A stretch of DNA of 64,000 nucleotides from Bathymodiolus thermophilus thioautotrophic gill symbiont (lineage in GTDB: Bacteria > Pseudomonadota > Gammaproteobacteria > PS1 > Pseudothioglobaceae), in assembly GCF_003711265.1 (NCBI RefSeq), contig NZ_CP024634.1, forward strand, positions 2,108,001 to 2,172,000. Direction: 5' to 3'. The position numbers were made by a program, and so were the translations under genes. Shown here piece by piece: positions 40,677 through 64,000 of this stretch. The notes under the pieces are model-generated. The model was not told the DNA's origin, did no database searches, and saw only the letters and a program-made list of their open reading frames with translations. Every line of letters starts with the position of its first letter. The first letter of the stretch is position 1.

Positions 40677-41846
40677 TTACTTTTCGTTAAGCGCGCCGCC
40701 AAATCCACGAGAGATAGGCTTGATAAGGTAGGTAAACAAAGAGCGCGTACCAACTTTAACATCAACCGTACCTGACATACCAAGCTTCGGCTTAATTAAC
40801 TTAGATTTTTCGTTTTCATCATGCTCTGGACCTTCAATTTTAATGTTAACTTGATAAAAAGCCGTTTCTCTGCCCGAGGGGTCTTTATCTAACAAAGTAT
40901 CCGAACTAATATAAGTCACTGTGCCCTTTAAGCCACCAAAAATCGTATAATCAAAAGCATCAAGTTTAATCGTTGCTAACATACCAGGAATTAATCGACC
41001 AATATCTACAGGGGCAATTTTTGCCTCTAAAATCACACCACCTTGTGAGGGAGATATTTCCATCAACTGCTCACCCGAACGCAACACGCCACCTACGGTT
41101 GTTACCTTTAAATCTTTAACAATACCATTCACAGGAGAATGAACACTGGTGTATTCCAAAACACTTTGTTGTTTTTTTAACTTATGCAAAACACCTGCCA
41201 ACTCGCCTTCTATTTTTTTAACTTCGGTACTGGCTTTTTCATAATACTTGTTTTCAGTATCGGCCAATCTACGCCTAAAGTCTAGCATTTTTTGCTTAAC
41301 TCTTAACACTTCTAATTGCCCCACATCACCATTTTTTTCTAAGGTTTCATTGATTCTCCACTCTTCAATGCTAATATCAAGACTCTCTTTTAGAATGGAT
41401 ACTTCTTGTTCTAGGGAATGTTTTTGTTGTTTATACAAAGCAGTTTGAGCCTTTATAAAATCAGGATATTTTTTTGTTAGTTTGTCAAATACCAGTGGTG
41501 CTCTTAGCAAAATAGCTTGCGATCTTGCCAACTCTGACTTTAAATGTGCTACTTGAGATTCAATTTCGTAATAACCCGCTTGTGCACGGTCATTCTCTAG
41601 CGTTGCCAATAATTGACCTTGGATAACCTTCTCACCCTCTTTCACCAAAAGCTTAGACAAAACACCGCCATCTGCCACTTGAATAATTTGATTACTGCCA
41701 TTTGCCACTACTTTACCTTGGGAGCGCACAGTTTCATCAATATCAAAGATGGTTGCCCACAAGATAAAAGCAAACAAGGCGCTCAACAATACATAAGGTA
41801 CCGAAAACGAATGCTCAATTTTTAATAAAATTTTCTCTAGACTCAT
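40677..41846 (-). CDS. HlyD-family membrane fusion protein of a type I secretion system
   Basis: Periplasmic adaptor joining the ABC transporter to the outer-membrane channel. The 389-residue protein has one N-terminal transmembrane helix (VPYVLLSALFAFILWATIF), the biotinyl-lipoyl halves (VADGGVLSKLLVKEGEKVIQ and YTSVHSPVNGIVKDLKV), a long coiled coil between them (about residues 95-230) and the HlyD beta-barrel (GMLATIKLDAFDYTIFGGLK). It overlaps the ABC gene by four bases (ATGA) and the DUF2927 gene abuts it. It resembles LapC-type adaptors of large adhesin exporters. Confidence 0.92.
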   Translation of the reverse strand: MSLEKILLKIEHSFSVPYVLLSALFAFILWATIFDIDETVRSQGKVVANGSNQIIQVADGGVLSKLLVKEGEKVIQGQLLATLENDRAQAGYYEIESQVAHLKSELARSQAILLRAPLVFDKLTKKYPDFIKAQTALYKQQKHSLEQEVSILKESLDISIEEWRINETLEKNGDVGQLEVLRVKQKMLDFRRRLADTENKYYEKASTEVKKIEGELAGVLHKLKKQQSVLEYTSVHSPVNGIVKDLKVTTVGGVLRSGEQLMEISPSQGGVILEAKIAPVDIGRLIPGMLATIKLDAFDYTIFGGLKGTVTYISSDTLLDKDPSGRETAFYQVNIKIEGPEHDENEKSKLIKPKLGMSGTVDVKVGTRSLFTYLIKPISRGFGGALNEK

Positions 41847-44008
41847 GATTTTTCCTCTTTTGGTTGCGCTTGCGTTACTTGTGCTTGTTGAGCTTGCTGC
41901 TGTGGCTGCCCTTGTTGTGACGCGCCCCCTTGTGACTTACCAGAGAGTGCTGCAATCACTTCTGCTTTTGGACCATCCATAATAATTTGATTTTTATTAA
42001 CCACAATCAAGCGATCAACCAATTCTATCATTTCCATCTTATGAGTAACCAAAACCAGCGTATCTTCTGGTCTAATGGTTTTCTTAAACATAGCAATTAA
42101 CAAAGCCTCTAGATTTCTATCAACCGATGCTGTTGGCTCATCTAACAACCATATTCTTGGCTCTCTCAATACCACACGAGTAAGATTTAATAACTGCTTT
42201 TGACCGCCAGACAACCCCAATCCGCCTTCAGAAATTTCATGCTCCAACCCTTTTTCACTGGCAGAAATAACGCTATCTAGTAATCCCGTTATTTTTGATA
42301 CCGCTAAAATCTTTTCATCACCGGGATCAACCAGCCCAAGGATTAGATTTTCTCTCACAGTACCTTTAAACAAACGACCTTCTTGCTGTAAAAAACCAAT
42401 ATTTTCAGATAATACAGGTTTTGAGATGTGTGCCAAATCAATGTCATTCATTAAAATCCTGCCTGCATTGGGCTTATACATACCACTCAGCAAACGAAGT
42501 AATGAGGTTTTTCCCGAGCCAATTGGCCCTAAAACACCAATCTTCTCACCTGATTTAATAGTCATTTCTGGTAATGCCAATGCCACCTTATTGCCATAAT
42601 TAAACTGTGTTTTTTCCTCAATAAAGAAATCAGTTTTTAAATTATCGGGCACAATAGGTTGTTCAATGCCATCATGGTCGCACTTTAATTCCCAAATCAC
42701 ATCTAGAGATTTAATCGCCGACTTGGTGTTTGCCCACTGCACTAACTGTGCTGGAATTTGCGCAACAGGTGCTAAAATTCTACCTGATAGAATCGAACAA
42801 GCAATCAATCCACCCATGGTTAAACCGCCACCACCAATCATCATTGCACCAAATGCCACCATAATCACAAATGAGGACTGCTGAAACAATGCCACCATAT
42901 ATTGAGATTGGTCGGTCATACGCTTCATTTCTAAGTCGTAGCCACGCCCTTCATCAGTCACATTCATCCAATTTGAAAGCATACGCCAACCGCCTTGCCC
43001 TGATTTAATGGTTTCTGCCCCTTCAACTGACTCCACCAACATACCCACTCTAAGGTTAACTGATTCGTTAATATTGTCTGCTAATTTTTCAATCTTTGCA
43101 TGAAAATATAAGCCTGTTGCAGTGGCAACAAAGAAAAATGCAACCGGCACAAATGCCAATTTACCTGCAATAACAACAATCAATAAAACATAAAATAAAA
43201 CAAATGGCACATCCACAACTAAATAAGTGGTAATAGAAGACAAGAAAGAGCGTACCGATTCATAGCCACGCATTTGCGATGCTAAACTACCCACACTTTT
43301 TGGCAATTGATCCATACGCAATGCTAAAAAGCGTTTATACACATCTCTGGACAGTCGTCTATCAATGTTTTCAATCAGTTTTTCATACAAACCTGCACGC
43401 GTTAATTTAGCAATAAAATCTAATAGCGTCAACACCAGCACACCAATGGTTAATACCATTAAAGTTTGGGCAGCACCTGTCGGCACAACTCGGTCATATA
43501 CTTGCATTGAATAAAAAGCACTGGCTACCGCAACAATATTAATAAATACGCCTGCCACAGAAGCGTTAATCAGCCATTTTTTATGAATAATAATTTCATT
43601 CTTAACCATCTGAAAAATTCGACTTTTGCCAACATCAAGTTTTTTCTTCATATTGAGGGCAAATAATTCGTACTCCTCTAAATCCTCAATGACCAACTCT
43701 AACCAAGTGTGTTGATCCGCAGAAAACCACTCGCCAATCCACTCGCCCTTGGCATTATGACTTTTAAGCACACCCCAGCCCTGATCTTTATCAAAAATCA
43801 ACATGGGTAATATTGATGGATCGTTAATAGTTTTTATTTTTTTAGGCGTTCGCAGGAGTAATTCTGAGCAAATGCCTTTTAACATTGCCAACTTGGCAAC
43901 CGACTCATTAAATTCATCCTCAACGACTTGTTGAAGTTCCACCCTATCAAAACGGGAGCGCTGGAGTTGTGCTAAACGCTGAAGGCTAGTAAGTAAACTG
44001 TTTCTCAT
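41843..44008 (-). CDS. Type I secretion ABC transporter (LapB-like)
   Basis: A 721-residue inner-membrane ATPase-permease. The N-terminal ~125 residues look like a C39-like domain without a catalytic cysteine (contains VVEDEFNESVAKLAML), as in exporters of RTX proteins and adhesins, so no leader peptidase activity is expected. Six membrane helices follow, then the nucleotide-binding domain with Walker A (VLGPIGSGKTSLLRL), signature (LGLSGGQKQLLNLTRVVL) and Walker B (IWLLDEPTASVDR). The C-terminus is a Gln-rich tail (SQQGQPQQQAQQAQV) that is not part of the family core. Gene order with adhesin, TolC-like and HlyD-like genes confirms the role. Confidence 0.93.
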   Translation of the reverse strand: MRNSLLTSLQRLAQLQRSRFDRVELQQVVEDEFNESVAKLAMLKGICSELLLRTPKKIKTINDPSILPMLIFDKDQGWGVLKSHNAKGEWIGEWFSADQHTWLELVIEDLEEYELFALNMKKKLDVGKSRIFQMVKNEIIIHKKWLINASVAGVFINIVAVASAFYSMQVYDRVVPTGAAQTLMVLTIGVLVLTLLDFIAKLTRAGLYEKLIENIDRRLSRDVYKRFLALRMDQLPKSVGSLASQMRGYESVRSFLSSITTYLVVDVPFVLFYVLLIVVIAGKLAFVPVAFFFVATATGLYFHAKIEKLADNINESVNLRVGMLVESVEGAETIKSGQGGWRMLSNWMNVTDEGRGYDLEMKRMTDQSQYMVALFQQSSFVIMVAFGAMMIGGGGLTMGGLIACSILSGRILAPVAQIPAQLVQWANTKSAIKSLDVIWELKCDHDGIEQPIVPDNLKTDFFIEEKTQFNYGNKVALALPEMTIKSGEKIGVLGPIGSGKTSLLRLLSGMYKPNAGRILMNDIDLAHISKPVLSENIGFLQQEGRLFKGTVRENLILGLVDPGDEKILAVSKITGLLDSVISASEKGLEHEISEGGLGLSGGQKQLLNLTRVVLREPRIWLLDEPTASVDRNLEALLIAMFKKTIRPEDTLVLVTHKMEMIELVDRLIVVNKNQIIMDGPKAEVIAALSGKSQGGASQQGQPQQQAQQAQVTQAQPKEEKS

Positions 44009-44043
44009 TGAATGTCCTTAATTATATTAATATTTGTCATTAT

Positions 44044-45615
44044 TTATTTTTCACCTTTTGGCGAGAATTGAATAGACTTGTCAGATGTTTTTTTACTTGG
44101 TGACCAGTTGTCCATTTTTTTGATAAAATTACTAAAACCATTGTCTTTTACTGTTTTGATAATGTTTTGATGTGTTTCAACATCAGCAGACCAAACAATT
44201 TTATCCACTTCATCTTCATCTTTAGTAAAGATGAGATCCAATACTTTATCAGAAATACCTGCCTGAGGCACATTCTCTACCCCCGGTCGCCACAATGTTT
44301 TACTTGAATTAAGCGTCCTTTTAGGTTTGGTGTTAGAAAATGGCTTAAGAATGTTATTCATACGCTTCACATAAATAAAAATCCGCCAATTAACAGTTGC
44401 CGTTTCAGCGTAAACATTCGCTAATTGCGCTTCTAATTGCGATACCTCGCGAATGGAAGTCATCACATCGTTCCATTGCTTTCTACCTGCTAAAAACTGC
44501 CGATACCAAGACTTCTGCACTTCTTTTATATTTTCTAATGAGATCAACAACAATTCTTGTTGTTGCTTGTAAGATTTGGAAGATGCCCAATCTAATTCAA
44601 TTTGCTGTGCAATTTTATTTTTTGCGTCTTGAATTTTTGACTGTGCAGATTTGTAACGATGTTTGATTTGTTTAACCTGTGACAAACTAGACAAACCAGC
44701 GCCAAAACTACTGTTTAACTCAAGGAATATACGATCCTGTGGACTGCTTTCAGCCCGCGTAAAATCACCCCATTGGCGTTCAACTCTTAGATTAATACCA
44801 GGATAAAGGCTGGCTTTGGCTTGTTTTAATTCAGACTTTAATGCCCGACTTTCAGCTTGATTTTTTTTAATTTGAGGGCTAAGTAATAAGGCTCTACTTT
44901 TAAGTTTTTCCAAGTTATTGCCAAACTCAATAATATAAAAATCTCTAATTAGCGCTTCTGGATCAAGTTTTAGGCCTAACAATTCCTCTAAATTACGCAA
45001 AGCATTTTCATGCTGAATAATCGCAGAATTTAAATTTGTACCCGATTGAGTGGTGCGTGAAGTCGCCAACTTCAGATCACTTATCGAAGACAAACCTTGT
45101 TCAATACGACGCTTTAGACGCACATTAAGCATATCATGCTCTTTTTTGCTTTTGCCATAAGCCTCTTTCTTTAAAAAACTGTCATACCAACGACTGTAGG
45201 CTTTAATTACTTTTAATGCCAAGTCACGCTCCGCAATTCTCGTTGACTCATGTGCGACAGAGAATTTTTCTCTAGAATTTTCTAATCTCGCATCAATTGC
45301 GCCACCTGCCCATAAAGGCTGAGAAAAACTAAGCAGCGCAATGCGCTCATCACCACCATAATTAATATCTGTACTAGAGGCTTTAACTTGTTTAACTGAG
45401 AAACTAGGTGTGGGAAAATAACGCCACTTAGCACCAGTTATCTCATCCTTGGCAGAATTCTCTAAAAAAACGCTACTTTTAATACTGGGATGATAAGCAA
45501 TCGCTTTGTTGATTAAATTTGGCAAACTAAACGCACCATTAGTTCGCGCATTGGCATTCATCACTAAAGCGCAAAGCAAAAGTGCAGTAATTGTTATTTT
45601 ATTATTTAAAATCAT
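44044..45615 (-). CDS. TolC-family outer membrane channel of the type I secretion system
   Basis: A 523-residue outer-membrane efflux protein. Signal peptide (MILNNKITITALLLCALVMN, cleaved near NAR), then two TolC-type helical halves (for example AIDARLENSREKFSVAHEST and AQSKIQDAKNKIAQQIEL). The start overlaps the adhesin stop by four bases, so it is translationally coupled to its cargo. An extra C-terminal region of roughly 110 residues (from about LWRPGVENVPQAG) with charged segments goes beyond the TolC core; similar extensions occur in LapE-type channels. Expected to provide the exit duct for the adhesin and probably for the propeller proteins. Confidence 0.9.
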   Translation of the reverse strand: MILNNKITITALLLCALVMNANARTNGAFSLPNLINKAIAYHPSIKSSVFLENSAKDEITGAKWRYFPTPSFSVKQVKASSTDINYGGDERIALLSFSQPLWAGGAIDARLENSREKFSVAHESTRIAERDLALKVIKAYSRWYDSFLKKEAYGKSKKEHDMLNVRLKRRIEQGLSSISDLKLATSRTTQSGTNLNSAIIQHENALRNLEELLGLKLDPEALIRDFYIIEFGNNLEKLKSRALLLSPQIKKNQAESRALKSELKQAKASLYPGINLRVERQWGDFTRAESSPQDRIFLELNSSFGAGLSSLSQVKQIKHRYKSAQSKIQDAKNKIAQQIELDWASSKSYKQQQELLLISLENIKEVQKSWYRQFLAGRKQWNDVMTSIREVSQLEAQLANVYAETATVNWRIFIYVKRMNNILKPFSNTKPKRTLNSSKTLWRPGVENVPQAGISDKVLDLIFTKDEDEVDKIVWSADVETHQNIIKTVKDNGFSNFIKKMDNWSPSKKTSDKSIQFSPKGEK

Positions 45616-48600
45616 AAAACGATTAAATCACCATTATTTATCATAGTGGTTAAATCAATACCTGTAACGCCAGTTAAAGTAATCTCAATATCAGCCACAA
45701 ATGAGCCGTCATTACCTATAGCACCATTAGCATCAACTTTTACCACTGTTTTTCCACCACTATCCTCGCTCCTGATAAAACTATCCAAAGTAGAATTTGA
45801 ATCATAGCCATCCAATAAATCTTTAAAATCCAACTTATCACTACCATTGGTAAAGTTATCAATGGTATCGTTACCATCAGTTGTGGCGTTATAATCAAAG
45901 GTATCAATACCAGTGCCACCACTCAAAGTATCATTACCGCCATTGCCAATAATTGTATTGTTAACACCCGCCTTAGCTGTCAAATTATCAGCACTTGAGT
46001 CACCCACCTTGAAATCATCAACCAAATTACCTGCTTTGTCTTGCAAACTATATTTTTGATCAGTGGTACTCCCATCAGCAATTTCAGACTGTTGATACTC
46101 AATTGTTATTGTATCGTTATCTTTAAAATTTGAGCTCAGGGTAAGTATTGCATTTTTACCATTATATGCCACTTTGACAACAGTAGTTGTGATGTCATTA
46201 ATCTTAACCACAAAAGCGCTTGTTACATCTGAGTCACTCGTTCCTGATGTGCTGTAAACATATAAATCTTCACTAAAACCTAATGCAATTTGTTTGCTAT
46301 TTGCCAATCTTGTTTGTGACTGGTATTCAGGACTTATGTTGTCAGTTGTAATTTCTTGGGAAAAATGAGAGATAGCAGTATGATCAGAATCACCATTTGT
46401 ATTACCTGTGCGATCTGTTTGTCGAACTTGAATATCTTGACTGTCATAAGTTTTATTTTGCTCCAAATCAAAAGAAAACTCATCGGTTAATGAGTGACTG
46501 GTTTTACCCCCATTACCCTCTTTCCAATTATCGCCACCATCAACAGAATATTGCCAAGTTGCGTCTTTTTCGATATTGCTTACTTCAATCTCAGCACTAC
46601 TGGTTATTCTATCTGAAAAATTAACACCTGTATCAAATTTAAGATTGATAGTTGCCTGAGCAACTTGAGCATCAACAGTAAATTCTTTTAATTCAGACAT
46701 GTTACTCATATTACCTGATTTATCACGAATTCTAACGCCTAATTTATAAGTTTCTCCTTCTGCTGAAGTGTCAAAATTCAATGTGAGTGATGCAATTTTG
46801 TTGTCAACATCTTGAGCAGTAAGTTCGTAGATCGTTTCTAAATTCTTCCCATCATTGTAAAAAAATAAAATATCACCTGCAACAGCATTGACCTGACTAT
46901 CCTTTTCAAGAGAAACTTGAATCTGCAAAGAACTGTCATCTGTTATTTGTCCAACACCCACTTCGCCAGTAGTTGTTCCTCGATCGTCTATAATGCTGAC
47001 AATACTTGGCTGTAGAGGATTTACCTTGTCAATGCTGTAACTTTTCTCTACTATGGGGGCAATACTATTGCCTGCTATATCTTGTAAATTTTCCTTAATG
47101 TCGGCTTGAACCTCATAGGCTATACTGATTTCATTTGTTGCTGATGATGACATTATGTCACCTGAGAAATAAATAGATACTTTTTTATCAATAACTTCAA
47201 CTCTATCTATTGCTTGCATTGATTCACTATCACCAACTTTGATAGCGAAAGACTCCTTTCTAAAAGTAGCGGGCTTTATAATGTTCTCATCAAATGTCAA
47301 TGTAATCTTAGTCTCTTTCACCGTACTCTGATCATCTTCAAAAATTCTAACAAAATCTAATTCACTGTCTAACTCATAAATGGCCTTTGTGTTATCTATT
47401 TGCCAATCATTCAAATTCCTTACATTGCTTACATTGCCAGCTTCATCAGTCTGTTTCGCCCTAATAGAGCCACGGCTATAATTACCATTTTCTTCTAAAT
47501 TAATCGTGAATTTACTTGCGTTACTTGCGTTATTGATCGTTATCCAATCTCTATTGTTCAAAGTATATTCCACCACCGCATCTTCTTCAATATTATCAAT
47601 TACTATCGTTTTACTATTAGTGATACCGTCATCATCTCTAAACCCTGTATCATTCAAGCGCAACTCTAACCCAGTAACTTTAGTATCGTAAGTAATTAAA
47701 AACTTCTCTGACAATATCCCTAGGTTACCCACTTGATCAATAACTCTCGCTTCGAAAATATAGGTTTTATCATCTTGGTTATCGCCAGAACTTAATGATG
47801 GTAAGTTAATATTTTTATATTTATTACTAATATCATTTTCACTCAGTGTTACATACATAGAGTGAGAACCATCTTGTAATATCTGAATTTTATCGTCTGA
47901 TTTTGCATCAGTGCCTTCTAAATTAACACGAATTATTATTAAACTGTTGTTGGTTGTGTCTCCATTAGCAATATTATTTTTGTCATTAGAGGTTGCTTTT
48001 TCAATCGTTACCTTTGCTGGTTTTGTATTATCTAGCGCATAGGAACTTGCTTCAATATTGGCAATAGAATTGCCTGCTTTATCTTGCAAAAAAACTATAT
48101 TATTGGCTCTTGAAGAGGACAGTTTAATGTTGTTTTCACTTATATCACCTGACACATAAATCATAACTTTTTTATCGTTTATCTCAACCCTATTGATTAC
48201 TTGATCTGTAAGAGAGTCTTCGCTGTCAAAACTCTGAACAATAAAGGAATTGTTACTAAAATCAGTGGGCTTGATAATCTCTTCATCAAATTTTAGCGTA
48301 ATGCGAACTTCTTTCACTTTAGTGCTATCGTTACTATTATCATCTCCTAAAATTCTGACAAAATCCAATGTATCGTCTTTTTCATAGGTGGGTGCTGTAT
48401 TGTCTATTTGCCATGCTTTTGTATTGTTAACACTACTCACATTGCCAGCTTTATCAGTCTGCCTCACCTGAACACTACGACTTTCGTAACTACTGTTCTC
48501 TCCCAAACTAAACGAAAAACCATTGTTATTATTAAGTGTTATCCAATCAGTATTATTTAAACTATATTCTACTGTGGCTCCATTTTCGACATTGTTAATT

Positions 48601-51600
48601 TCTACTATCCTATTATTGCTAATGCCGTCACTATCATCAACTCCTGTATCATTCAAGTGCAATGTCAATGCATCAACATGACTGTCATAAGTAATTAAAA
48701 ACTCAGATGACAAGGTGCCTATATTACCCGATTGATCAATAACTCTTGCTGTAAAAATATAGGTTTCATCACTATTACCGCCACCTGTATTGAATTCTAA
48801 CAACTCTACAACTTTGTATTTATTGTTAATATCAACTCTATCTAAGGTTACATATTGAGAATGAAAGCCATCTTCTAGTATCTGAATTTTATCACCTGAT
48901 TTTGCTCTCGCATTTTCTGGCAAATTATCGGTGTTTAAATCAATACGAATACTTACTGAACGGTCATTGGTTGTTTTTCCACTACTAAGGGAATTATTGT
49001 TATTAGCGATTGCTTCTTGAATTGTTATCTTTCCTGGTTCGTCCTGATCTAATGAATAAATACTTTGGGCAATCGTAGCAATGGCATTGCCTGCTTTATC
49101 TTGCAAAGGCTGTGCGTCAACGATTAACTTATACAATAAAGTAATATTCTTTTCAGTTACATCACCTGAAATATAAATGACAACTTTTTTGCTGTCTGTG
49201 TCATCTATTTCAACCTTGCTAATTGTTTTAGATGTTTCTACTCCGTTATTAAAACCAGAGATTTCAAAAGAATCCTTATTAAAATTATCGGGAATTTCAA
49301 TGTCTTCATCAAATTTTAGTGTGATGCGAACTTCTTTCACTATAGAACTATCATCATTTCCAAAAATTCTGACAAAATCCAGTTTATCGTCTTTTTCATA
49401 TTTGGCCGCTGTCTTGTCAATTACCCAATTCTCCGCATTTTTTGCAATGTCATTACTCGTATTGGTATTACCTGCACCATCTGTTTGTCTGACTTTAACG
49501 CTGCCCATTTTATAAATGGCATCTTGTGCCAAATCAATCTGCGCTATGCCTTTATCATCAGCATAATTAATCTTATTACTTGCAAGTGTTTGCCATTCGT
49601 CACCACCATCTAAAATATATTCAACTTTAGCGCCTTCTTCAATATTGCCAATTATTATTGTTTTATTGCTGGTAATTTCATCCGTAGTGCTTACACCTGT
49701 GTCTTCTTTTAATGCCAGCGTTAAAGCCTCAACCTTACCATCATAGATAATTGAATACTCGTCTGCTAATTCATTCTTATTGCCTGCTTGGTCAATTATA
49801 TATGCTTTAAATTTATATTCCTTATTGTCATTATCTTCACTTGAATTCAAGGGGTTTAACTCAATTTCTTTCCAGCCTTTCTCAATATCATTCTCACTCA
49901 GTGTTACATATTTAGAGTGGGTGTAGCCCGTTCCGTCATCTACTTTTATCTGAATTCTATCGTCTTTTTCTGCAATAGTATTGTTACCATTCTTTAAGGA
50001 AATGCGAATAATTGGCGTTTCATCGTTAGTTGTTTCGCCACTAGCAAGATTAATATTGTCTTCGGTAATCACTTTTTCAATCGTCACCTTTTCTGGTGCT
50101 GTGGTATCTAATGTATAAGATTGTAAAGCAATTTCGCCTTTAACATGATAATTTACCGTTTCTTTTGTTGCTGTATCTGCAGTAATTGCAAATTGAATAA
50201 TGTATTCACCCTCTTGCAAATCTACATTCCATGAAATATCACGATCACTAATTTCATTATTTTTATTAATATTTTTCCAAGTTGCACCGCTGTCTACACT
50301 ACCCCAAAGCTCTTCATCGCCTGACAATGCCACCTTAAGGGTTGCAGTGATAGTCTGCTGTTCGGTGTTCGTAAGAAAATCATTGTCATTCTCACCTAAT
50401 GCGTCCTTATCGTTGCTAATTTTTATTCCAGCGTAGGTAATAATGCTCTTAAATTGTTCACTATAACTGCTGGGTACATCATCTTCACCTGGGTTTGTCT
50501 CTTTATCTGCTTGATTTAAACCTGCTAAAAAATCTGCTTTTACAATTTCTTTTAGCACGCCATTATCATCAATTGCCTCAACTATTGTTTTTAAAACTTC
50601 AGCAGTGTCTTTTTCGCTGTCTAATTTACCCTTGCGGTCATAGGTTTCCATGCCAGAAATACCTGATAATATATACCCCAATGCCTTGGCGTTAGTGCTG
50701 GCAGAACTGTCATAACTATCAGCATTAATTATCGCAGGTTGAGTACTACTAATGTCTACATTGTCCATTTGGAATGCTTTGTTGACCGCAGTATTGGCAG
50801 TGGCAAGACTAGCCTCTACATCATCCACATCCTTTAACTCCCCTTGACCATTGGACGCTCCATCTACTTCGCTAAATATTTTACGCACCACAATCTCAGT
50901 TAGCGGATTTACCATGACGGTAATATCTTTTGTGCCTTCTGCTTTAATAATTGCTCTAAATGAAGTGGATAAACTTTTTTCTTCATTAGTGCCTTCATCG
51001 AGATAGTCTTTTTTTCCACCACTACTGGTAACTTTGACGATTAAATACCCTGTATATTCCTTTGTAATATTGATAGAAAACGAGCCATTGTCTTCAATAG
51101 TTGCTTTATCAGAATCTACCTCTTCGTCATATTTATCATAAACTCTTAATGTTAAATCGTGCCCTTCAACCACTTGTCCAGCACTAATATTGCCTGAAAC
51201 AGTAAATTTAGTTGAGCCATCGTCATCATCAGAATTATTACTTGCTACAAATGCAATGACAGCCAATGCACCTAAACCTAATGTCGTATATGAATAAAGA
51301 GAAGAACTCTCTTCTTTATACTGCTCAACAAAATCTGCTAGAGTACCGTTATCAGGAGAGTCCGCAAGAATACCTTTTAAGGCACTAGGGTCGCCGTAAA
51401 AATAAACCAATTCGGTGCCATCATCAAGCACCTTAAATTGCGCATCAGAAACATGATACAAGCCACCTTCAGAAGGTAAAGACACCACACAACCTAAAGC
51501 GCCATCTAAGCAAACTGTAAAATAATCATCGAAGATAACTGTGGTTTGATCATCCAATAGCAGCACCAAATCACTGCCTTGTTTTTTTGCCAAGACATTA

Positions 51601-51788
51601 AAATCTATTTCTAGCGAAGTGTCGTGCTTTTGTAAAATTACTTGATAAGCATTGCCCGATTCAACTTTAATGTGTTTGGATTGTGTCTGTTCTATAACAA
51701 TGTTTTGCTGTTGAAGCGATTCTAATTTAACAGTTTTAACCGCTCTAATTACTTGCTCTTTAACTTCCACTTGTTGCTTAACTTCCAT
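45612..51788 (-). CDS. Giant RTX adhesin (2058 residues), BapA/LapA-like, type I secretion substrate
   Basis: Leads the secretion operon. Residues 1-130 are the same N-terminal module as in the four propeller proteins (Cys93 and Cys100, CVVSLPSEGGLYHVSD, ELVYFYG), resembling the BapA prefix domain; a hydrophobic stretch (GLGALAVIAFVAS) and Asp-rich linker follow. A region of about 330 residues precedes four units of about 310 residues, each with three Ig-like parts (markers TIEKV/TIQEA, DTGV/DTGF, DFVRI), the last unit ending in an SwmB-like domain. The C-terminus has an RTX repeat (GNGGNDTLSGGTGIDTF) and the type I target domain ending NNGDLIVL. It is highly acidic and calcium-binding by prediction. 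Role: adhesion or biofilm formation; ligand unknown. Confidence 0.9.
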   Translation of the reverse strand: MEVKQQVEVKEQVIRAVKTVKLESLQQQNIVIEQTQSKHIKVESGNAYQVILQKHDTSLEIDFNVLAKKQGSDLVLLLDDQTTVIFDDYFTVCLDGALGCVVSLPSEGGLYHVSDAQFKVLDDGTELVYFYGDPSALKGILADSPDNGTLADFVEQYKEESSSLYSYTTLGLGALAVIAFVASNNSDDDDGSTKFTVSGNISAGQVVEGHDLTLRVYDKYDEEVDSDKATIEDNGSFSINITKEYTGYLIVKVTSSGGKKDYLDEGTNEEKSLSTSFRAIIKAEGTKDITVMVNPLTEIVVRKIFSEVDGASNGQGELKDVDDVEASLATANTAVNKAFQMDNVDISSTQPAIINADSYDSSASTNAKALGYILSGISGMETYDRKGKLDSEKDTAEVLKTIVEAIDDNGVLKEIVKADFLAGLNQADKETNPGEDDVPSSYSEQFKSIITYAGIKISNDKDALGENDNDFLTNTEQQTITATLKVALSGDEELWGSVDSGATWKNINKNNEISDRDISWNVDLQEGEYIIQFAITADTATKETVNYHVKGEIALQSYTLDTTAPEKVTIEKVITEDNINLASGETTNDETPIIRISLKNGNNTIAEKDDRIQIKVDDGTGYTHSKYVTLSENDIEKGWKEIELNPLNSSEDNDNKEYKFKAYIIDQAGNKNELADEYSIIYDGKVEALTLALKEDTGVSTTDEITSNKTIIIGNIEEGAKVEYILDGGDEWQTLASNKINYADDKGIAQIDLAQDAIYKMGSVKVRQTDGAGNTNTSNDIAKNAENWVIDKTAAKYEKDDKLDFVRIFGNDDSSIVKEVRITLKFDEDIEIPDNFNKDSFEISGFNNGVETSKTISKVEIDDTDSKKVVIYISGDVTEKNITLLYKLIVDAQPLQDKAGNAIATIAQSIYSLDQDEPGKITIQEAIANNNNSLSSGKTTNDRSVSIRIDLNTDNLPENARAKSGDKIQILEDGFHSQYVTLDRVDINNKYKVVELLEFNTGGGNSDETYIFTARVIDQSGNIGTLSSEFLITYDSHVDALTLHLNDTGVDDSDGISNNRIVEINNVENGATVEYSLNNTDWITLNNNNGFSFSLGENSSYESRSVQVRQTDKAGNVSSVNNTKAWQIDNTAPTYEKDDTLDFVRILGDDNSNDSTKVKEVRITLKFDEEIIKPTDFSNNSFIVQSFDSEDSLTDQVINRVEINDKKVMIYVSGDISENNIKLSSSRANNIVFLQDKAGNSIANIEASSYALDNTKPAKVTIEKATSNDKNNIANGDTTNNSLIIIRVNLEGTDAKSDDKIQILQDGSHSMYVTLSENDISNKYKNINLPSLSSGDNQDDKTYIFEARVIDQVGNLGILSEKFLITYDTKVTGLELRLNDTGFRDDDGITNSKTIVIDNIEEDAVVEYTLNNRDWITINNASNASKFTINLEENGNYSRGSIRAKQTDEAGNVSNVRNLNDWQIDNTKAIYELDSELDFVRIFEDDQSTVKETKITLTFDENIIKPATFRKESFAIKVGDSESMQAIDRVEVIDKKVSIYFSGDIMSSSATNEISIAYEVQADIKENLQDIAGNSIAPIVEKSYSIDKVNPLQPSIVSIIDDRGTTTGEVGVGQITDDSSLQIQVSLEKDSQVNAVAGDILFFYNDGKNLETIYELTAQDVDNKIASLTLNFDTSAEGETYKLGVRIRDKSGNMSNMSELKEFTVDAQVAQATINLKFDTGVNFSDRITSSAEIEVSNIEKDATWQYSVDGGDNWKEGNGGKTSHSLTDEFSFDLEQNKTYDSQDIQVRQTDRTGNTNGDSDHTAISHFSQEITTDNISPEYQSQTRLANSKQIALGFSEDLYVYSTSGTSDSDVTSAFVVKINDITTTVVKVAYNGKNAILTLSSNFKDNDTITIEYQQSEIADGSTTDQKYSLQDKAGNLVDDFKVGDSSADNLTAKAGVNNTIIGNGGNDTLSGGTGIDTFDYNATTDGNDTIDNFTNGSDKLDFKDLLDGYDSNSTLDSFIRSEDSGGKTVVKVDANGAIGNDGSFVADIEITLTGVTGIDLTTMINNGDLIVL

Positions 51789-57699: not shown

Positions 57700-57729
57700 C
57701 AAAAAAACCCAAGTAAAAAACTTGGGTTG
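57700..57729 (-). terminator. Rho-independent terminator of the lectin gene
   Basis: On the minus strand a 9-bp stem AACCCAAGT/ACTTGGGTT with a 5-base loop is followed by a run of seven T residues. It lies 55 bases past the stop codon of the 57783-59888 gene. Confidence 0.85.
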
Positions 57730-57782: not shown

Positions 57783-59888
57783 TCAATCAGTAGGTGCATT
57801 TGAACCCCCTCGATTTGAATCACCCCAAGCCGTGATTGAACCGTCGGACTTAAGGGCGGCAAAAGCACTATTGGTTGAATAAATCTTGATATAACCATTG
57901 TCAGTAGGTGCATCTGAGCCACCATAAGTTGAATTTTTCCAAGCTGTGATCGAACCATCGGACTTAAGGGCGGCAAAAGCACGAAGCGTTGAATAAATCT
58001 TAATATAACCACCGTCAACAGGTGCATCTGAGCCTCCATAAGTTGAGTCACCCCAAGCTGTAATTGAACCATTGGCCTTAAGGGCAGCAAAAGCACGATC
58101 AGTTGAATAAATCTTGATATAACCATTATCAACAGGTGCCCCTGAACCTCCAGAACCTGAGCCACCCCAAACTGTAATTGAGCCATTAGCCTTCAGAGCG
58201 GCAAAAGCAAAACCAGTTGAATAAATCCTGATATAGCCACTGTCAATAGGCGCACCAGAGCCTCCAGAATCTGAACTACCCCAAGCTGTAATTGAGCCAT
58301 TAGCCTTAAGGGCGGCAAAAGCACGATCAGTTGAATAAATCTTGATATAACCATTGTCAAGGGGTGCACTTGAGTCTCCAGAACTTGAGTAACCCCAAGT
58401 TGTGATTGAGCCATCGGATTTAAGAGCGGCAAAGGTATGAATCGTTGAATAAATCTTAGTATAGCCGTTGCCAATAGGCGCACTTGAACCTCCATAAGCT
58501 GAACTACCCCAAGCTGCGATTGAACCATTGGCCTTAAGAGCGGCAAAAGCACGCTCAGTTGAATAAATTTTAATATAACCATTGTCAACGGGTGCGCCCG
58601 ACCCCCCATAACTTGATTCCCCCCAAACGGTAATTGAACCATCAGCCTTCAGAGCAGCAAAAGCACGCTCAGTTGAATAAATCTTGACATAACCACTGCC
58701 AGTAGGGGCATCTGAGCCCCCAAAATCTGAATGACCCCAAGCCTTGATTGAGCCATCAGCTTTAAGGGCAGCAAAAGCATAAGTGGTTGAATAAATCTTG
58801 GTATAACCACTGCCGGTAGGTGGGTTTGCACCTCCATAAGTTGAATCACCCCAAACTGCAATTGAACCATCAGCTTTAAGAGTGGCAAAGGCCTTACCAT
58901 TAGAAAAATTTGGCGCATTATAAAATCCACCGAAATTATTATGAACACTAGAAACATCTATTTCAGAAAAACGCCAACGCCCTACTGGCACACTGCCAAT
59001 ATTCTGCCAAATATGTGCATTACAAAACTCAAGTAAATTGCTAATGGTGTTATAACGAATTGCACCTATATTGTTGACATCACACTGGCTGTTACTATTA
59101 CCAACTTTAATATTTCCAGTTACCGCTAAGTCACTTGCCCCTTGAAGGCTAACTTCATCACCTATTTGAGCAAAGAACGAATCGCCATCTGCTCCATCTG
59201 CTCCATTTTCACCCTTATCTCCTTTAGGGCCCACACTGCCTGTTAATCCTCGAGGGCCATCCATACCTTGATGCCCTCTAGGGCCTTCAAACCCTCTACG
59301 GCCTTGTTCGCCTTGTTCTCCTTGTTCGCCTTGTTCGCCTTGCTCTCCCTCGGTAAGCGGACCCATAACCTCTACTTCTGCTAGAGATAAGTAGTTATTA
59401 CCCAATAGGTAAATTGAAACATATTGACCTCGTATACCTTCGCCTAGATCAACAACATTTACAGGATTAGGGGCAGAAGCAAAGTTTTTGGCATAAGTGG
59501 TATACACAGCTCTGGGGGGTACTGTTCTAGGAAATGTTCGTGCAGAAATAACAACTCGATAGTTACTCAGTCTCTCTTTACAACAATCAACACGGTTATA
59601 AACAATGATTTTTTTAATGAGTCTGAGAGAGCCTAAGTCAACCTGCCACCAAGCACCTTCCTCTTTCTTCGTATGAGTAGTACTCGCATTTAAGAAGTAA
59701 CCATTAATATTGCCATCTACTGCTTTGTCAGAACTAGGGTTAACAGAATGTACATGTGTGCTAGATTGCGAAGTAAATCTATGATAGGCTAAATTGACAT
59801 CATAGGCATAAACGGTCGCTGGTAAAACAATGAGAATTGTTAGTATTAAAGTACGGCAAAACTTCTTTCTAGTGTTAATTGAATTCAT
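57783..59888 (-). CDS. Secreted F-type lectin / collagen-like / RCC1-like repeat protein
   Basis: A 701-residue exported protein with a mosaic, animal-like layout. Signal peptide 1-28 (ending PATVYA). Residues about 30-176 form an F5/8-type domain of the F-type lectin (fucolectin) class: His72, Arg99, Asp101 and Arg106 reproduce the fucose-binding pattern H-X26-R-X-D-X4-R, and Cys102-Cys103 match the vicinal disulfide that contacts the sugar. Residues 181-237 are 19 Gly-X-Y triplets (GEQ repeats then varied), a collagen-like rod. Residues about 238-332 are a small linker domain. Residues about 333-701 are nine full and one partial 38-residue RCC1-like repeats (AxKxDGSIxxWGxS). A strong terminator follows. 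Likely surface-exposed or released and sugar-binding; the biological target is not known. Confidence 0.85.
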   Translation of the reverse strand: MNSINTRKKFCRTLILTILIVLPATVYAYDVNLAYHRFTSQSSTHVHSVNPSSDKAVDGNINGYFLNASTTHTKKEEGAWWQVDLGSLRLIKKIIVYNRVDCCKERLSNYRVVISARTFPRTVPPRAVYTTYAKNFASAPNPVNVVDLGEGIRGQYVSIYLLGNNYLSLAEVEVMGPLTEGEQGEQGEQGEQGEQGRRGFEGPRGHQGMDGPRGLTGSVGPKGDKGENGADGADGDSFFAQIGDEVSLQGASDLAVTGNIKVGNSNSQCDVNNIGAIRYNTISNLLEFCNAHIWQNIGSVPVGRWRFSEIDVSSVHNNFGGFYNAPNFSNGKAFATLKADGSIAVWGDSTYGGANPPTGSGYTKIYSTTYAFAALKADGSIKAWGHSDFGGSDAPTGSGYVKIYSTERAFAALKADGSITVWGESSYGGSGAPVDNGYIKIYSTERAFAALKANGSIAAWGSSAYGGSSAPIGNGYTKIYSTIHTFAALKSDGSITTWGYSSSGDSSAPLDNGYIKIYSTDRAFAALKANGSITAWGSSDSGGSGAPIDSGYIRIYSTGFAFAALKANGSITVWGGSGSGGSGAPVDNGYIKIYSTDRAFAALKANGSITAWGDSTYGGSDAPVDGGYIKIYSTLRAFAALKSDGSITAWKNSTYGGSDAPTDNGYIKIYSTNSAFAALKSDGSITAWGDSNRGGSNAPTD
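57786..58892 (-). repeat. 114-bp tandem repeat encoding RCC1-like blades
   Basis: Nine complete and one partial in-frame units of 114 bases, each encoding 38 residues around ALKADGSI and GGSxAPxxxGYIKIYST. The regular, highly similar units could expand or contract by slippage without breaking the frame. Confidence 0.88.
59178..59348 (-). repeat. Collagen-like Gly-X-Y coding repeat
   Basis: Nineteen codon triplets beginning with glycine; the first five are identical (Gly-Glu-Gln) and therefore form a 9-bp tandem repeat prone to length change. It probably trimerises the protein. Confidence 0.85.
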
Positions 59889-59932: not shown

Positions 59933-60087
59933 GAGACCTTTGCATAAATATGGATGATGAGCAAAATTCAATTTCTGTCCAATTGGTAATTTTCTTAAAT
60001 CTTGTTCCAGCAGGGCTAAGACTGGATTCAAAAAATTACTAAGTGGGTGAGAAGTGGATTCTTGATGATTGTTTATGCAAAGGTCTT
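59933..60087. repeat. R1 miniature inverted repeat upstream of the lectin gene
   Basis: GAGACCTTTGCATAAATATG at the left, TTTATGCAAAGGTCT at the right, about 155 bases with several changes in the right arm. It lies 44 bases upstream of the lectin start codon, in the promoter position. Confidence 0.8.
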
Positions 60088-60499: not shown

Positions 60500-60708
60500 C
60501 CCGCCCAAAACAAATAACAAAAAAACCCTTAAATCCGCCACCCTAAAACTAAAATTCACCCAACCAAGCAGGTCAATTCTGCCACATCACCGACCGCTAC
60601 AGCATTAACAAGGCACAGTTGGCACTTACAACACACCACTTTATTTCGCCATTACTTAACAATAACACAGTAAAATGGTCATTAATTATCAGTCTTAAAA
60701 ACTTTATT
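60500..60708 (+). repeat. Duplicated leader, copy 1
   Basis: About 205 bases before the first cadherin-like gene that reappear at 63238-63454 before its paralogue. Both contain the shared run CCGCCACCCTAAAACT and AACACAGTAAAATAGTTATT-like sequence just before the ATG, so gene and control region were duplicated together. Confidence 0.75.
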
Positions 60709-63018
60709 ATGAACACATTTAATCGCTTTATTATTACCGCTTTATTGACTTTATTTGCTTCGCAAGCGTTTGCCGTTGAGCCAATGGTTATAGAAATTGA
60801 AAGAACAGACGAAACTACACTTGCCATTACGCATGACCAGCCTATTAAGCAAATACATGATGGAGGGTATTACAATATACTCATAGAGATTAATAAGAAA
60901 GTGTATGTGGGTATTAGGGACAGCCATGGTAATCTTGTAGCAGATAACAGTAAAACAATAACCGCTGTTGCCCCAGATAGCGATGGCTTTGCTGTTATTT
61001 GGAAAATGACTGTACCAGAATTTATTGATATGGATCGTGACAATCTAACGACTATTGACGACATATTCATCGCTGGCCTTGGTTGGGCTAATAATTCTAA
61101 TGAATATGTGTCAAGTTATTCGATTACTAACTTTTCTCTTTGTTACCAAAATTGTAGCCTCACCATCACTTCCACCAGCGCATTCTCCACCAATGAAAAA
61201 GTAAAAAGCACCACCCACACCCTCACCGCCAGCGACCCCGCCGCCACTTTCAGCATTATTGAAAACACCAGCCACTTATTCAAACTCAGTGGCACCAACA
61301 ACAAAATCTTAACCTTCGATGGCACCAATACCGACTATGAAGGCAAAAGATTCTACACCGTCAAAGTCAAAGCCAGCACAGGAGATGGAGACGATAAAAA
61401 CACCGAACAAACCATCACCGTTACCATTGACAATGTCCTTGAAAAAACCATCACTATCAACAACCAACAACTATCCGTTAACGAAAATTCACCCATAAAT
61501 ACCGATGTTGGCACCGTCAATGCCTCAGGCGAAATAACAAATTACACCATTACGGATGGCAATAACGCTGGCTTCTTTAAAATCAACGCCACCACAGGGC
61601 AAATCCAAGTGGCAGCAACAGGCTTAAATCACGAAACCATGCCAAGTTACACCCTCACTATCAAAATCACTGGCACTGATGCCGAAGATGCAAGCGCCCA
61701 AATCACCATTAACATCAACAATGTGGACGACACCGTCCAAAAGGCCATCACCCTAACAAAACACAGTATTGCACTTGGTAGAAATGCTCACACAGTCATA
61801 GGTGTCTTGTCCACATCCAATACAGAGAGTGCCAATTTAACTTACAGCGTCAATGACACTGAGAATTTTGAAATTACAGGCAATAGCCTAAAAATCAAAA
61901 CAGTTACCCAAGCAACAGGCACACACCCAATCACCATTACTGTCAGTAACGGCACTCAGAATATTGCCACACAAAACTTCACTATTACCATAACCGCTGC
62001 CCTTGCTATGCCAATAGTTGAGCAGTTCACTGTTATTCAAAATGGAAACAAAGGTCGTTTAATTAGTAAAAATGGTGGCACTGTTACTGTCAGTGTCACA
62101 ACAAGTGCAGAGTCTTATGTTTGGCGTTCTGAACTTGCTAATATGGAGAGTAACAGTGGCACAACTTTTGTTTTTGATCCCAGTTCTTTGGATATTGGCA
62201 CTAAAACAATTAAGTTAAAAGTTACCGCTGGCGATCTGTCATCAACAAGAGTTTTGCAACTTCAATTAGTTGCCAGTTATCCTAACGATCGAGTAGATGC
62301 AAACAGTAATGGTATTGCTGATGACAAAGAAGCAAGATATAGCGGCCATGAATTTGAATTACTCGCAGGAACGAATAAAAAAATCACCAGTTTAGCAAAC
62401 ACCAGAATATTGCTAGGTGCCATGGGTAAAGATTCTGGACTCTTGACCCTTGAGCAAATGAAAGAATATATCCAAAATAACGAGGCGTTGACTGATAAGT
62501 CTATGGATACATTAACCACTGGTGATATTTACGACTATGTCGTTGAAGACTTAAGCGCCGCTGGCGCTTCTGCTGAAGTGATTATTGAACTCACCACCGC
62601 AACCTCTAAAAATGCAAAGTTACGCAAATATTCGCTAGTCAATGGTTGGTCTGATTTTGTGGTTGATAATAACAATACAATTCAATCCAAAACAAGCACA
62701 ACTTGCACTGATAGAAACTGGCAAACTGGGTTAATCACAGGCGCAACTTGCCTTAAGTTAACCATCAAAGACGGTGGTGAAAATGACACCGATGGTGAAC
62801 AGACCAGCAACACTGGTAATGCCAATGGCGTGGTTGAAAGCACCATTTCAATAGCAACACCTATTTCTATTGATGACGATGGTAATAATAGCAGTGGCAG
62901 TGGTGGTGGTTGTGTTTATAACCCTAATGCACCTGCTAGATTTGATATGGGCTTTATTTTATTAATGACATTGAGTGCTTATTATTTAATCAGAAGAAAG
63001 CGTCGTTTTATTCGTTAA
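60709..63018 (+). CDS. Cadherin-like surface protein with choice-of-anchor U domain and C-terminal sorting signal
   Basis: A 769-residue exported protein. Signal peptide MNTFNRFIITALLTLFASQA (cleaved after AFA); the ATG at 60709 is chosen because of it, although the frame opens earlier. An N-terminal domain of about 140 residues precedes several cadherin-like domains (markers SVNENSPINTDVGTV, NATTGQIQVAATGLNHETMP, ITININNVDD), a PKD-like part and a calcium-type DANSNGIADDKE segment. The region with GLITGATCLKLTIKDGGEND is a choice-of-anchor U domain. The tail (GSGGGCVYNPNAP, a hydrophobic helix, then RRKRRFIR) is a Cys-containing three-part sorting signal of JDVT/GlyGly-CTERM type, so the protein should be processed and anchored at the surface. 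A terminator follows. Confidence 0.82.
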   Translation: MNTFNRFIITALLTLFASQAFAVEPMVIEIERTDETTLAITHDQPIKQIHDGGYYNILIEINKKVYVGIRDSHGNLVADNSKTITAVAPDSDGFAVIWKMTVPEFIDMDRDNLTTIDDIFIAGLGWANNSNEYVSSYSITNFSLCYQNCSLTITSTSAFSTNEKVKSTTHTLTASDPAATFSIIENTSHLFKLSGTNNKILTFDGTNTDYEGKRFYTVKVKASTGDGDDKNTEQTITVTIDNVLEKTITINNQQLSVNENSPINTDVGTVNASGEITNYTITDGNNAGFFKINATTGQIQVAATGLNHETMPSYTLTIKITGTDAEDASAQITININNVDDTVQKAITLTKHSIALGRNAHTVIGVLSTSNTESANLTYSVNDTENFEITGNSLKIKTVTQATGTHPITITVSNGTQNIATQNFTITITAALAMPIVEQFTVIQNGNKGRLISKNGGTVTVSVTTSAESYVWRSELANMESNSGTTFVFDPSSLDIGTKTIKLKVTAGDLSSTRVLQLQLVASYPNDRVDANSNGIADDKEARYSGHEFELLAGTNKKITSLANTRILLGAMGKDSGLLTLEQMKEYIQNNEALTDKSMDTLTTGDIYDYVVEDLSAAGASAEVIIELTTATSKNAKLRKYSLVNGWSDFVVDNNNTIQSKTSTTCTDRNWQTGLITGATCLKLTIKDGGENDTDGEQTSNTGNANGVVESTISIATPISIDDDGNNSSGSGGGCVYNPNAPARFDMGFILLMTLSAYYLIRRKRRFIR

Positions 63019-63454: not shown

Positions 63455-64000
63455 ATGAACATATTTAATCGCTTTATTGTTACCACTTTATTGGTTTTGT
63501 TTGCTTCGCAGGCATTTGCCTATAGACCAGAGATTGCAAAAGTTGAAAGAATAGACAGCAAGACAATTCTTATTACCTTTGACCAACCCGTTGAGCCACT
63601 TCCGTTTTTTGACGCAACAGTGGGGGTAAAACTATATTCTGACACTACATACTACTTAGGCACTAGCAATTCTGGTCGCACTTATCCTTCAGAATTCATA
63701 AATCCTGTTAATAATTACAGTCAACAGATGAAAATCACACTTGAAGACGATAGCTTTAGATTAGCTGATGCTAGCGGTAAAACTTCAGTAACCGCATACC
63801 TAATTGACATTTACGTTAAAAATGCAATAGATCAATCCAATACAGATATCCACATTAAAGATCTTGTTCTTGCTTTTAATCATAGCTTCACCATAACTTC
63901 CACCAACACATTCTCCATCAATGAAAAAGTAAAAAGCGCCACCCACACCCTCACCGCCAGCAACCCCATTGCCACTTTCAGCATTATTGAAAACACCAGC
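63455..64000 (+). CDS. Cadherin-like surface protein paralogue, cut by the right edge
   Basis: The first 182 residues of a second copy of the 60709 gene. The signal peptide is nearly identical (MNIFNRFIVTTLLVLFASQA), the next ~130 residues are diverged (for example RPEIAKVERIDSKTILITFD against EPMVIEIERTDETTLAITHD), and similarity rises again in the first cadherin-like domain (FSINEKVKSATHTLTASN). The frame stays open to base 64000. Tandem duplication with a diversified N-terminal domain suggests this domain faces the variable partner. It should continue outside the window with cadherin repeats and an anchor. Confidence 0.85.
   Translation, partial: MNIFNRFIVTTLLVLFASQAFAYRPEIAKVERIDSKTILITFDQPVEPLPFFDATVGVKLYSDTTYYLGTSNSGRTYPSEFINPVNNYSQQMKITLEDDSFRLADASGKTSVTAYLIDIYVKNAIDQSNTDIHIKDLVLAFNHSFTITSTNTFSINEKVKSATHTLTASNPIATFSIIENTS

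Follow-up and report, generated by a model that had tools for sequence, protein, structure and literature searches.

A predicted fucose-binding F-type lectin with a collagen-like rod and an RCC1/BLIP-II-type repeat tail in the thioautotrophic gill symbiont of Bathymodiolus thermophilus

The deep-sea vent mussel Bathymodiolus thermophilus houses a sulfur-oxidising (thioautotrophic) bacterial symbiont within its gill cells. Bathymodiolus symbionts are horizontally acquired, and how the right host recognises them, and how they attach to it, is an open question. A gene in the 64,000-nucleotide stretch of DNA analysed here (the window) bears on it. An earlier inspection of the letters (the sequence-only reading) had noticed in its product a complete fucose-binding F-type lectin motif, and had proposed that the protein could bind host fucosylated glycans or mimic host lectins. 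Whether this is a true fucose lectin, whether it came from an animal and what it may do for the symbiont are the questions taken up here.

The gene is on the minus strand, with a reading frame open across 701 codons, and shows the following features.

57783..59888, minus strand: whole gene, 701 aa, comprising a signal peptide, F-type lectin, collagen-like rod, linker and RCC1/BLIP-II-type repeat tail.
59805..59888, minus strand: Sec signal peptide, residues 1-28, with VYA as the predicted cleavage site (by eye: basic start, hydrophobic stretch, A-X-A type site).
59358..59804, minus strand: F-type lectin domain, residues 29-177 (PDB matches by phmmer and hmmsearch, AlphaFold pLDDT 94, fold matches).
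59709..59723, minus strand: calcium-binding motif AVDGN, residues 56-60 (fits h2DGx of PMC5712786; alignment columns conserved).
59571..59675, minus strand: fucose-site motif H72-X26-R99-X-D101-C102-C103-X2-R106 (read in the translation and the domain alignment).
59178..59348, minus strand: collagen-like Gly-X-Y rod, residues 181-237, 19 triplets (Pfam Collagen, E 5e-10).
58914..59177, minus strand: linker, residues 238-325, with two cysteines; its whole form was found once in the genome, and its first 66 residues have low model confidence.
57786..58913, minus strand: about ten RCC1/BLIP-II-type repeats with a period of exactly 38 residues, reaching the stop codon (Pfam RCC1_2).
57706..57728: terminator-like hairpin and T run directly after the gene, on the minus strand (consensus match only).

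The Pfam matches in the product (Collagen, 5e-10; RCC1_2, 4e-26) bear out each part of the fusion that had been read from the letters, namely a lectin joined to a collagen-like rod and RCC1-type repeats. The interval first assigned to it, 59178-59888, does hold the signal peptide, the lectin and the collagen, but the RCC1-type tail continues to 57783. No outer-membrane anchor was recognisable in the protein sequence, and Rfam gave no match in the 64-kb window.

We observed residues H72, R99, D101, C102, C103 and R106 in the translation exactly as the sequence-only reading had given them. The spacing H-X26-R-X-D-X4-R is identical to that of eel agglutinin (AAA), at a constant offset of +20 from its triad His52, Arg79 and Arg86 (PMC5712786); this source writes the motif as HX24RXDX4(R/K), yet its own residue numbers give X26. 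The calcium motif of the F-type family, h2DGx (PMC5712786), is present as AVDGN at residues 56-60. When the domain was compared with PDB sequences by phmmer, the best match was FBP32 (E 1.9e-25), followed by fucolectin-related proteins of S. pneumoniae (about 1e-16), lectinolysin (about 5e-14) and eel agglutinin (8e-13), so that the closest solved proteins by sequence were F-type lectins without exception. This homology to solved fucose lectins excludes a chance origin of the motif. The structure prediction that had been proposed as a check gave an AlphaFold model of the domain with a mean pLDDT of 94, whose top ten entries in the fold comparison were all F-type lectins (Z 22-24); chitosan-binding and CBM32 modules came next (Z ≤ 18.4). 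Site motif, sequence matches and fold matches agree and settle membership of the F-type family with a complete predicted fucose site, and an ordinary F5/8 domain lacking the sugar site is ruled out by the PDB matches, the site residues and the fold Z scores. The symbiont domain shares the fold and the calcium motif with the solved F-type lectins (AAA, 1k12; FBP32, 3cqo; S. pneumoniae, 2j1r/2j22; lectinolysin, 3le0), and its vicinal cysteines are as in AAA and FBP32 domain 1. It differs from them in an identity of just 28-40%, approximately, and in its position as an N-terminal lectin fused to a collagen-like rod and an RCC1/BLIP-II-type tail. Judging from the site residues and the model, the lectin head probably binds fucose.

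The motif and the cysteine pair had also been taken as an animal pattern, and this did not hold. All six residues are carried by 73 of the 133 domains sampled, and each cysteine by about 124, in a sample biased toward these motifs because the scan patterns favoured NRT-D/A-CC. The Cys-Cys pair is present in most sampled bacterial F-type domains, which rules it out as an animal-specific hallmark.

The rod consists of 19 uninterrupted Gly-X-Y triplets (Pfam score 39.4 bits against a cut-off of 27.2) and gives the genome its sole collagen match. The tail was modelled with confidence, the linker excepted. A search of the tail against the PDB by sequence gave no match at E 0.01, while Foldseek placed BLIP-II first (E 3e-12) and then RCC1-type propellers. 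With VIA-align the match to BLIP-II had a Z of 15.9 and an rmsd of 6.3 Å over 232 residues, from an 11-sequence alignment and models of unequal quality. RCC1/BLIP-II proteins are a known group of highly repetitive propellers (PMC9218822). The tail has the RCC1_2 repeat family in common with BLIP-II (1jtd, 3qi0) and the RCC1-type propellers, BLIP-II being the best fold match; it differs in having about ten 38-residue repeats, in an rmsd above 6 Å that leaves closure of a seven-bladed ring unsure, and in showing no sign of beta-lactamase inhibition. The combination of an F-type lectin, a collagen rod and RCC1/BLIP-II-type repeats is a new architecture of a known lectin family.

This layout had been likened to that of soluble animal defence lectins. 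In collectins and ficolins an N-terminal collagen stalk is followed by a C-type lectin or fibrinogen-like head. The symbiont protein does resemble them in combining a lectin head with a collagen-like stalk, and both are presumably multivalent, but its lectin is N-terminal and F-type, so that the order lectin-collagen-propeller is the reverse of theirs; the different lectin fold, the extra propeller-like tail and the short rod also set it apart, and the likeness is one of analogy only.

F-type domains were present in five of the 12 genomes of the genus, and none was found in the other seven. The symbiont of Bathymodiolus sp. 5 South had 23 F-type matches, those of B. brooksi and B. azoricus three each, and that of B. 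heckerae two partial ones, whereas 13 other genomes of the family yielded just two copies of one fragment. The sequence matches indicate that the F-type domain is expanded within Bathymodiolus symbionts; it is a known lectin family with a lineage-specific expansion in an animal endosymbiont. Among the sampled genomes, only this one and that of the B. brooksi symbiont showed the association of lectin, collagen and RCC1 tail, and repeats of the tail type were found in the lectin-bearing genomes, with a weak match in one more. The two fragments outside the genus (genome G012, from another genus of the family; L028, 1483-1863, and L033, 1438-1818) are identical, run into a collagen-like start, and each adjoin a frame that by eye resembles an IS3-type transposase, which suggests that the lectin-collagen module has been spread by IS elements. 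A lectin-RCC1 gene of the B. heckerae symbiont (L034, 1390-3039) remains in frame despite lacking the second lectin half and the rod. No relative was found in viral contigs, and phage records gave only an RCC1-type match to the tail (28% identity), so a viral origin was rejected.

A search of the genome sequence revealed 16 F-type domains on 13 proteins. Four of these are short and have an RCC1-type tail (two of them in tandem), two carry an Lcl_C domain, one has 302 residues, and six are large (1854-2509 residues) with one or two C-terminal F-type domains, four of the six with Ig-like and Fib_succ_major domains. The full site is kept in nine of the 16 domains, a tally in which three near-identical copies of 2507-2509 residues were counted separately; the other seven have lost one residue (V or S at the histidine, or A at the aspartate), which indicates that fucose binding is not uniformly maintained. 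The three near-identical proteins (L019, 777-8303; genome positions 218190, 232385 and 2031977) have Big_2, He_PIG and Fib_succ_major domains and two C-terminal F-type domains each. We also considered the giant sister proteins as toxins and rejected this, as Pfam gave Ig, Fib_succ_major and F5/8-type domains and no toxin domain. The two Lcl_C proteins (L017, 2669-4282; L018, 2207-3862) have the site aspartate replaced by alanine (RTACC) and are nearly identical from the middle of the lectin on.

The analysis established what the domain is, that its site residues are complete, how it is predicted to fold, that it has expanded into paralogs and how the protein is built. The most likely function is that of a multivalent lectin, secreted or at the surface, directed at fucosylated glycans, and the fuller reading, of a secreted multivalent fucose-binding lectin used together with its 15 sister domains at the mussel interface, is in our opinion probable, if by no wide measure. 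The signal peptide, the collagen rod and the presence of other F-type domains on large surface-type proteins with Ig and Fib_succ_major domains support this role. Against it stand the lost site residues of seven sister domains, an outer-membrane anchor that was looked for and not recognised, and the silence on F-type lectins of the main texts consulted on these symbionts. The protein would be secreted via the Sec pathway, and its F-type head would bind terminal alpha-L-fucose through the triad H72/R99/R106. D101 would hold R99, the vicinal cysteines C102 and C103 would pack on the sugar, and Ca2+ would stabilise the fold. The collagen-like rod may form a trimeric stalk, so that three heads would act together. 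The RCC1/BLIP-II-type tail, a putative protein-binding platform, could tether the lectin to the symbiont surface, to its matrix or to another protein. The 16-domain set with its differing sites may then serve at the mussel interface in attachment, in recognition or in forming a sticky matrix in the vacuole, with host glycans as the presumed target.

A different origin, compatible with this role, is that the lectin domain was acquired from an animal, the mollusc host, and mimics its soluble lectins. In its favour, F-type lectins are numerous in bivalves (PMC5712786). The phylogeny that had been suggested for deciding this was carried out on bacterial lectins and, from animals, three vertebrate lectins only. 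In a tree of 133 domains, all 35 domains from Bathymodiolus symbionts formed one clade (SH-aLRT 98), which a smaller and more careful tree recovered with a support of 86/95. In the smaller tree the clade's closest neighbour was a domain from the Sulfurimonas that lives as an endosymbiont in a vent snail, Alviniconcha boucheti (93/83), with Acidobacteria next (88/55), and the three vertebrate lectins were placed away from the symbiont clade. The nearest sampled relatives are thus bacterial, but a tree holding the vertebrate lectins with the symbiont clade was not rejected by the AU test (p 0.15); with the larger set and the same constraint p was 0.74, and the constrained tree actually outperformed the quick one. 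With 150 alignment columns, the deep backbone of the tree is without resolution. The bacterial neighbours argue against an animal donor, as do the identities (about 31% to vertebrate lectins against 35-46% to Streptococcus and, beyond the symbiont clade, to the best of the other bacteria), the domain order, which is unlike that of animal collectins, and the generality of the motif and Cys-Cys pair within the F-type family. We regard acquisition from the mollusc as improbable, although the AU tests did not decide the matter. Exchange of F-type domains between symbionts of vent molluscs is possible. In the Alviniconcha boucheti endosymbiont the F-type domain (L067, 4001-4435) adjoins a ricin-type lectin domain.

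The ligand may also lie elsewhere than on the host. The lectin could bind fucosylated bacterial polysaccharides, such as those of its own capsule or biofilm matrix, of competitors or of phage-exposed surfaces, and so serve a protective matrix or antimicrobial defence. This agrees with the frequency of F-type domains in bacteria not known from animals, including soil Acidobacteria and marine Bacteroidota, and with the matrix or phage-protection role that the authors of PMC6976577 proposed for symbiont attachment proteins. We consider it unlikely, while giving it real weight, since the domains are limited to some symbiont genomes of the genus and most of the family's other genomes lack them, which indirectly favours a host-linked role. 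It is less plausible still that the F-type fold has another ligand or has drifted, as a fast-evolving IS-shuffled module with no strong current role in sugar binding. Sister domains do vary at the site (V, S, Y or G at the histidine, A at the aspartate), the B. heckerae symbiont and others have truncated copies, and the domain of the window has a long branch and a 7-residue insertion; however, in this copy the site and calcium residues are all intact, the 701-codon frame is open and the model is confident.

The preferred reading, of a secreted multivalent lectin at the mussel interface, agrees with what has been reported on attachment in these symbionts: in gill tissue, 129 attachment-related proteins make up 23.9% of the proteome of the B. 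thermophilus symbiont (PMC6976577). The attachment-related proteins of Bathymodiolus thiotrophic symbionts (PMC6976577, PMC5581435) come from the same organism group and are likewise multidomain proteins that carry binding domains and are predicted to be secreted or at the surface; the difference is that F-type lectins are named in neither main text (the former names C-type lectins only). A literature search on fucosylated glycans of Bathymodiolus gills found no paper. The F-type family, with its predicted intact and altered sugar sites, shows expansion in certain symbiont species, is missing from others, and provides named proteins with a predicted ligand class for the question of host-symbiont recognition; the lectin itself is a candidate for the mutual recognition of symbiont and host. 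Its lectin-collagen-RCC1/BLIP-II architecture is confined to these symbionts within this sample. A more far-reaching proposal, which we hold to be doubtful, is that a rapidly diversifying, IS-shuffled repertoire of F-type heads with differing sites, mounted on collagen-propeller and giant surface scaffolds, matches host-glycan variation and sets host-symbiont specificity, a situation we liken to the combinatorial F-type bindins of oysters.

Regarding the locus itself, the corresponding position in the B. brooksi symbiont, on contig C520, is occupied by an RCC1-tail gene that likewise adjoins the kinase gene (93% identical) and that loses its head where the contig ends. L053 of this symbiont, the nearest full-length relative (identity 59% in the lectin, 67% in the tail), is located elsewhere, and we rejected it as the positional ortholog because the kinase neighbour on C520 is a different RCC1-tail gene. 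The symbionts of B. azoricus and sp. 5 South showed no such tail within the flank adjoining the kinase. A MITE-like short element with perfect 15-base inverted ends (AGACCTTTGCATAAA) occupies 59934-60086, upstream of the lectin gene and about 46 bases from its start codon; the genome has at least 40 copies of it, mostly at 85-90% identity (40 scored of 363 first-look candidates). Neighbouring genes at 60619-63018 and 63455-64000, on the plus strand, encode secreted proteins that are related to each other, and the first of them has a cadherin domain. Farther away, at 41843-51788, genes for an ABC transporter, an outer-membrane efflux protein and a protein of 2058 residues that carries a bacterial Ig-like domain stand in a row, an arrangement that resembles a type I secretion locus for a large adhesin.
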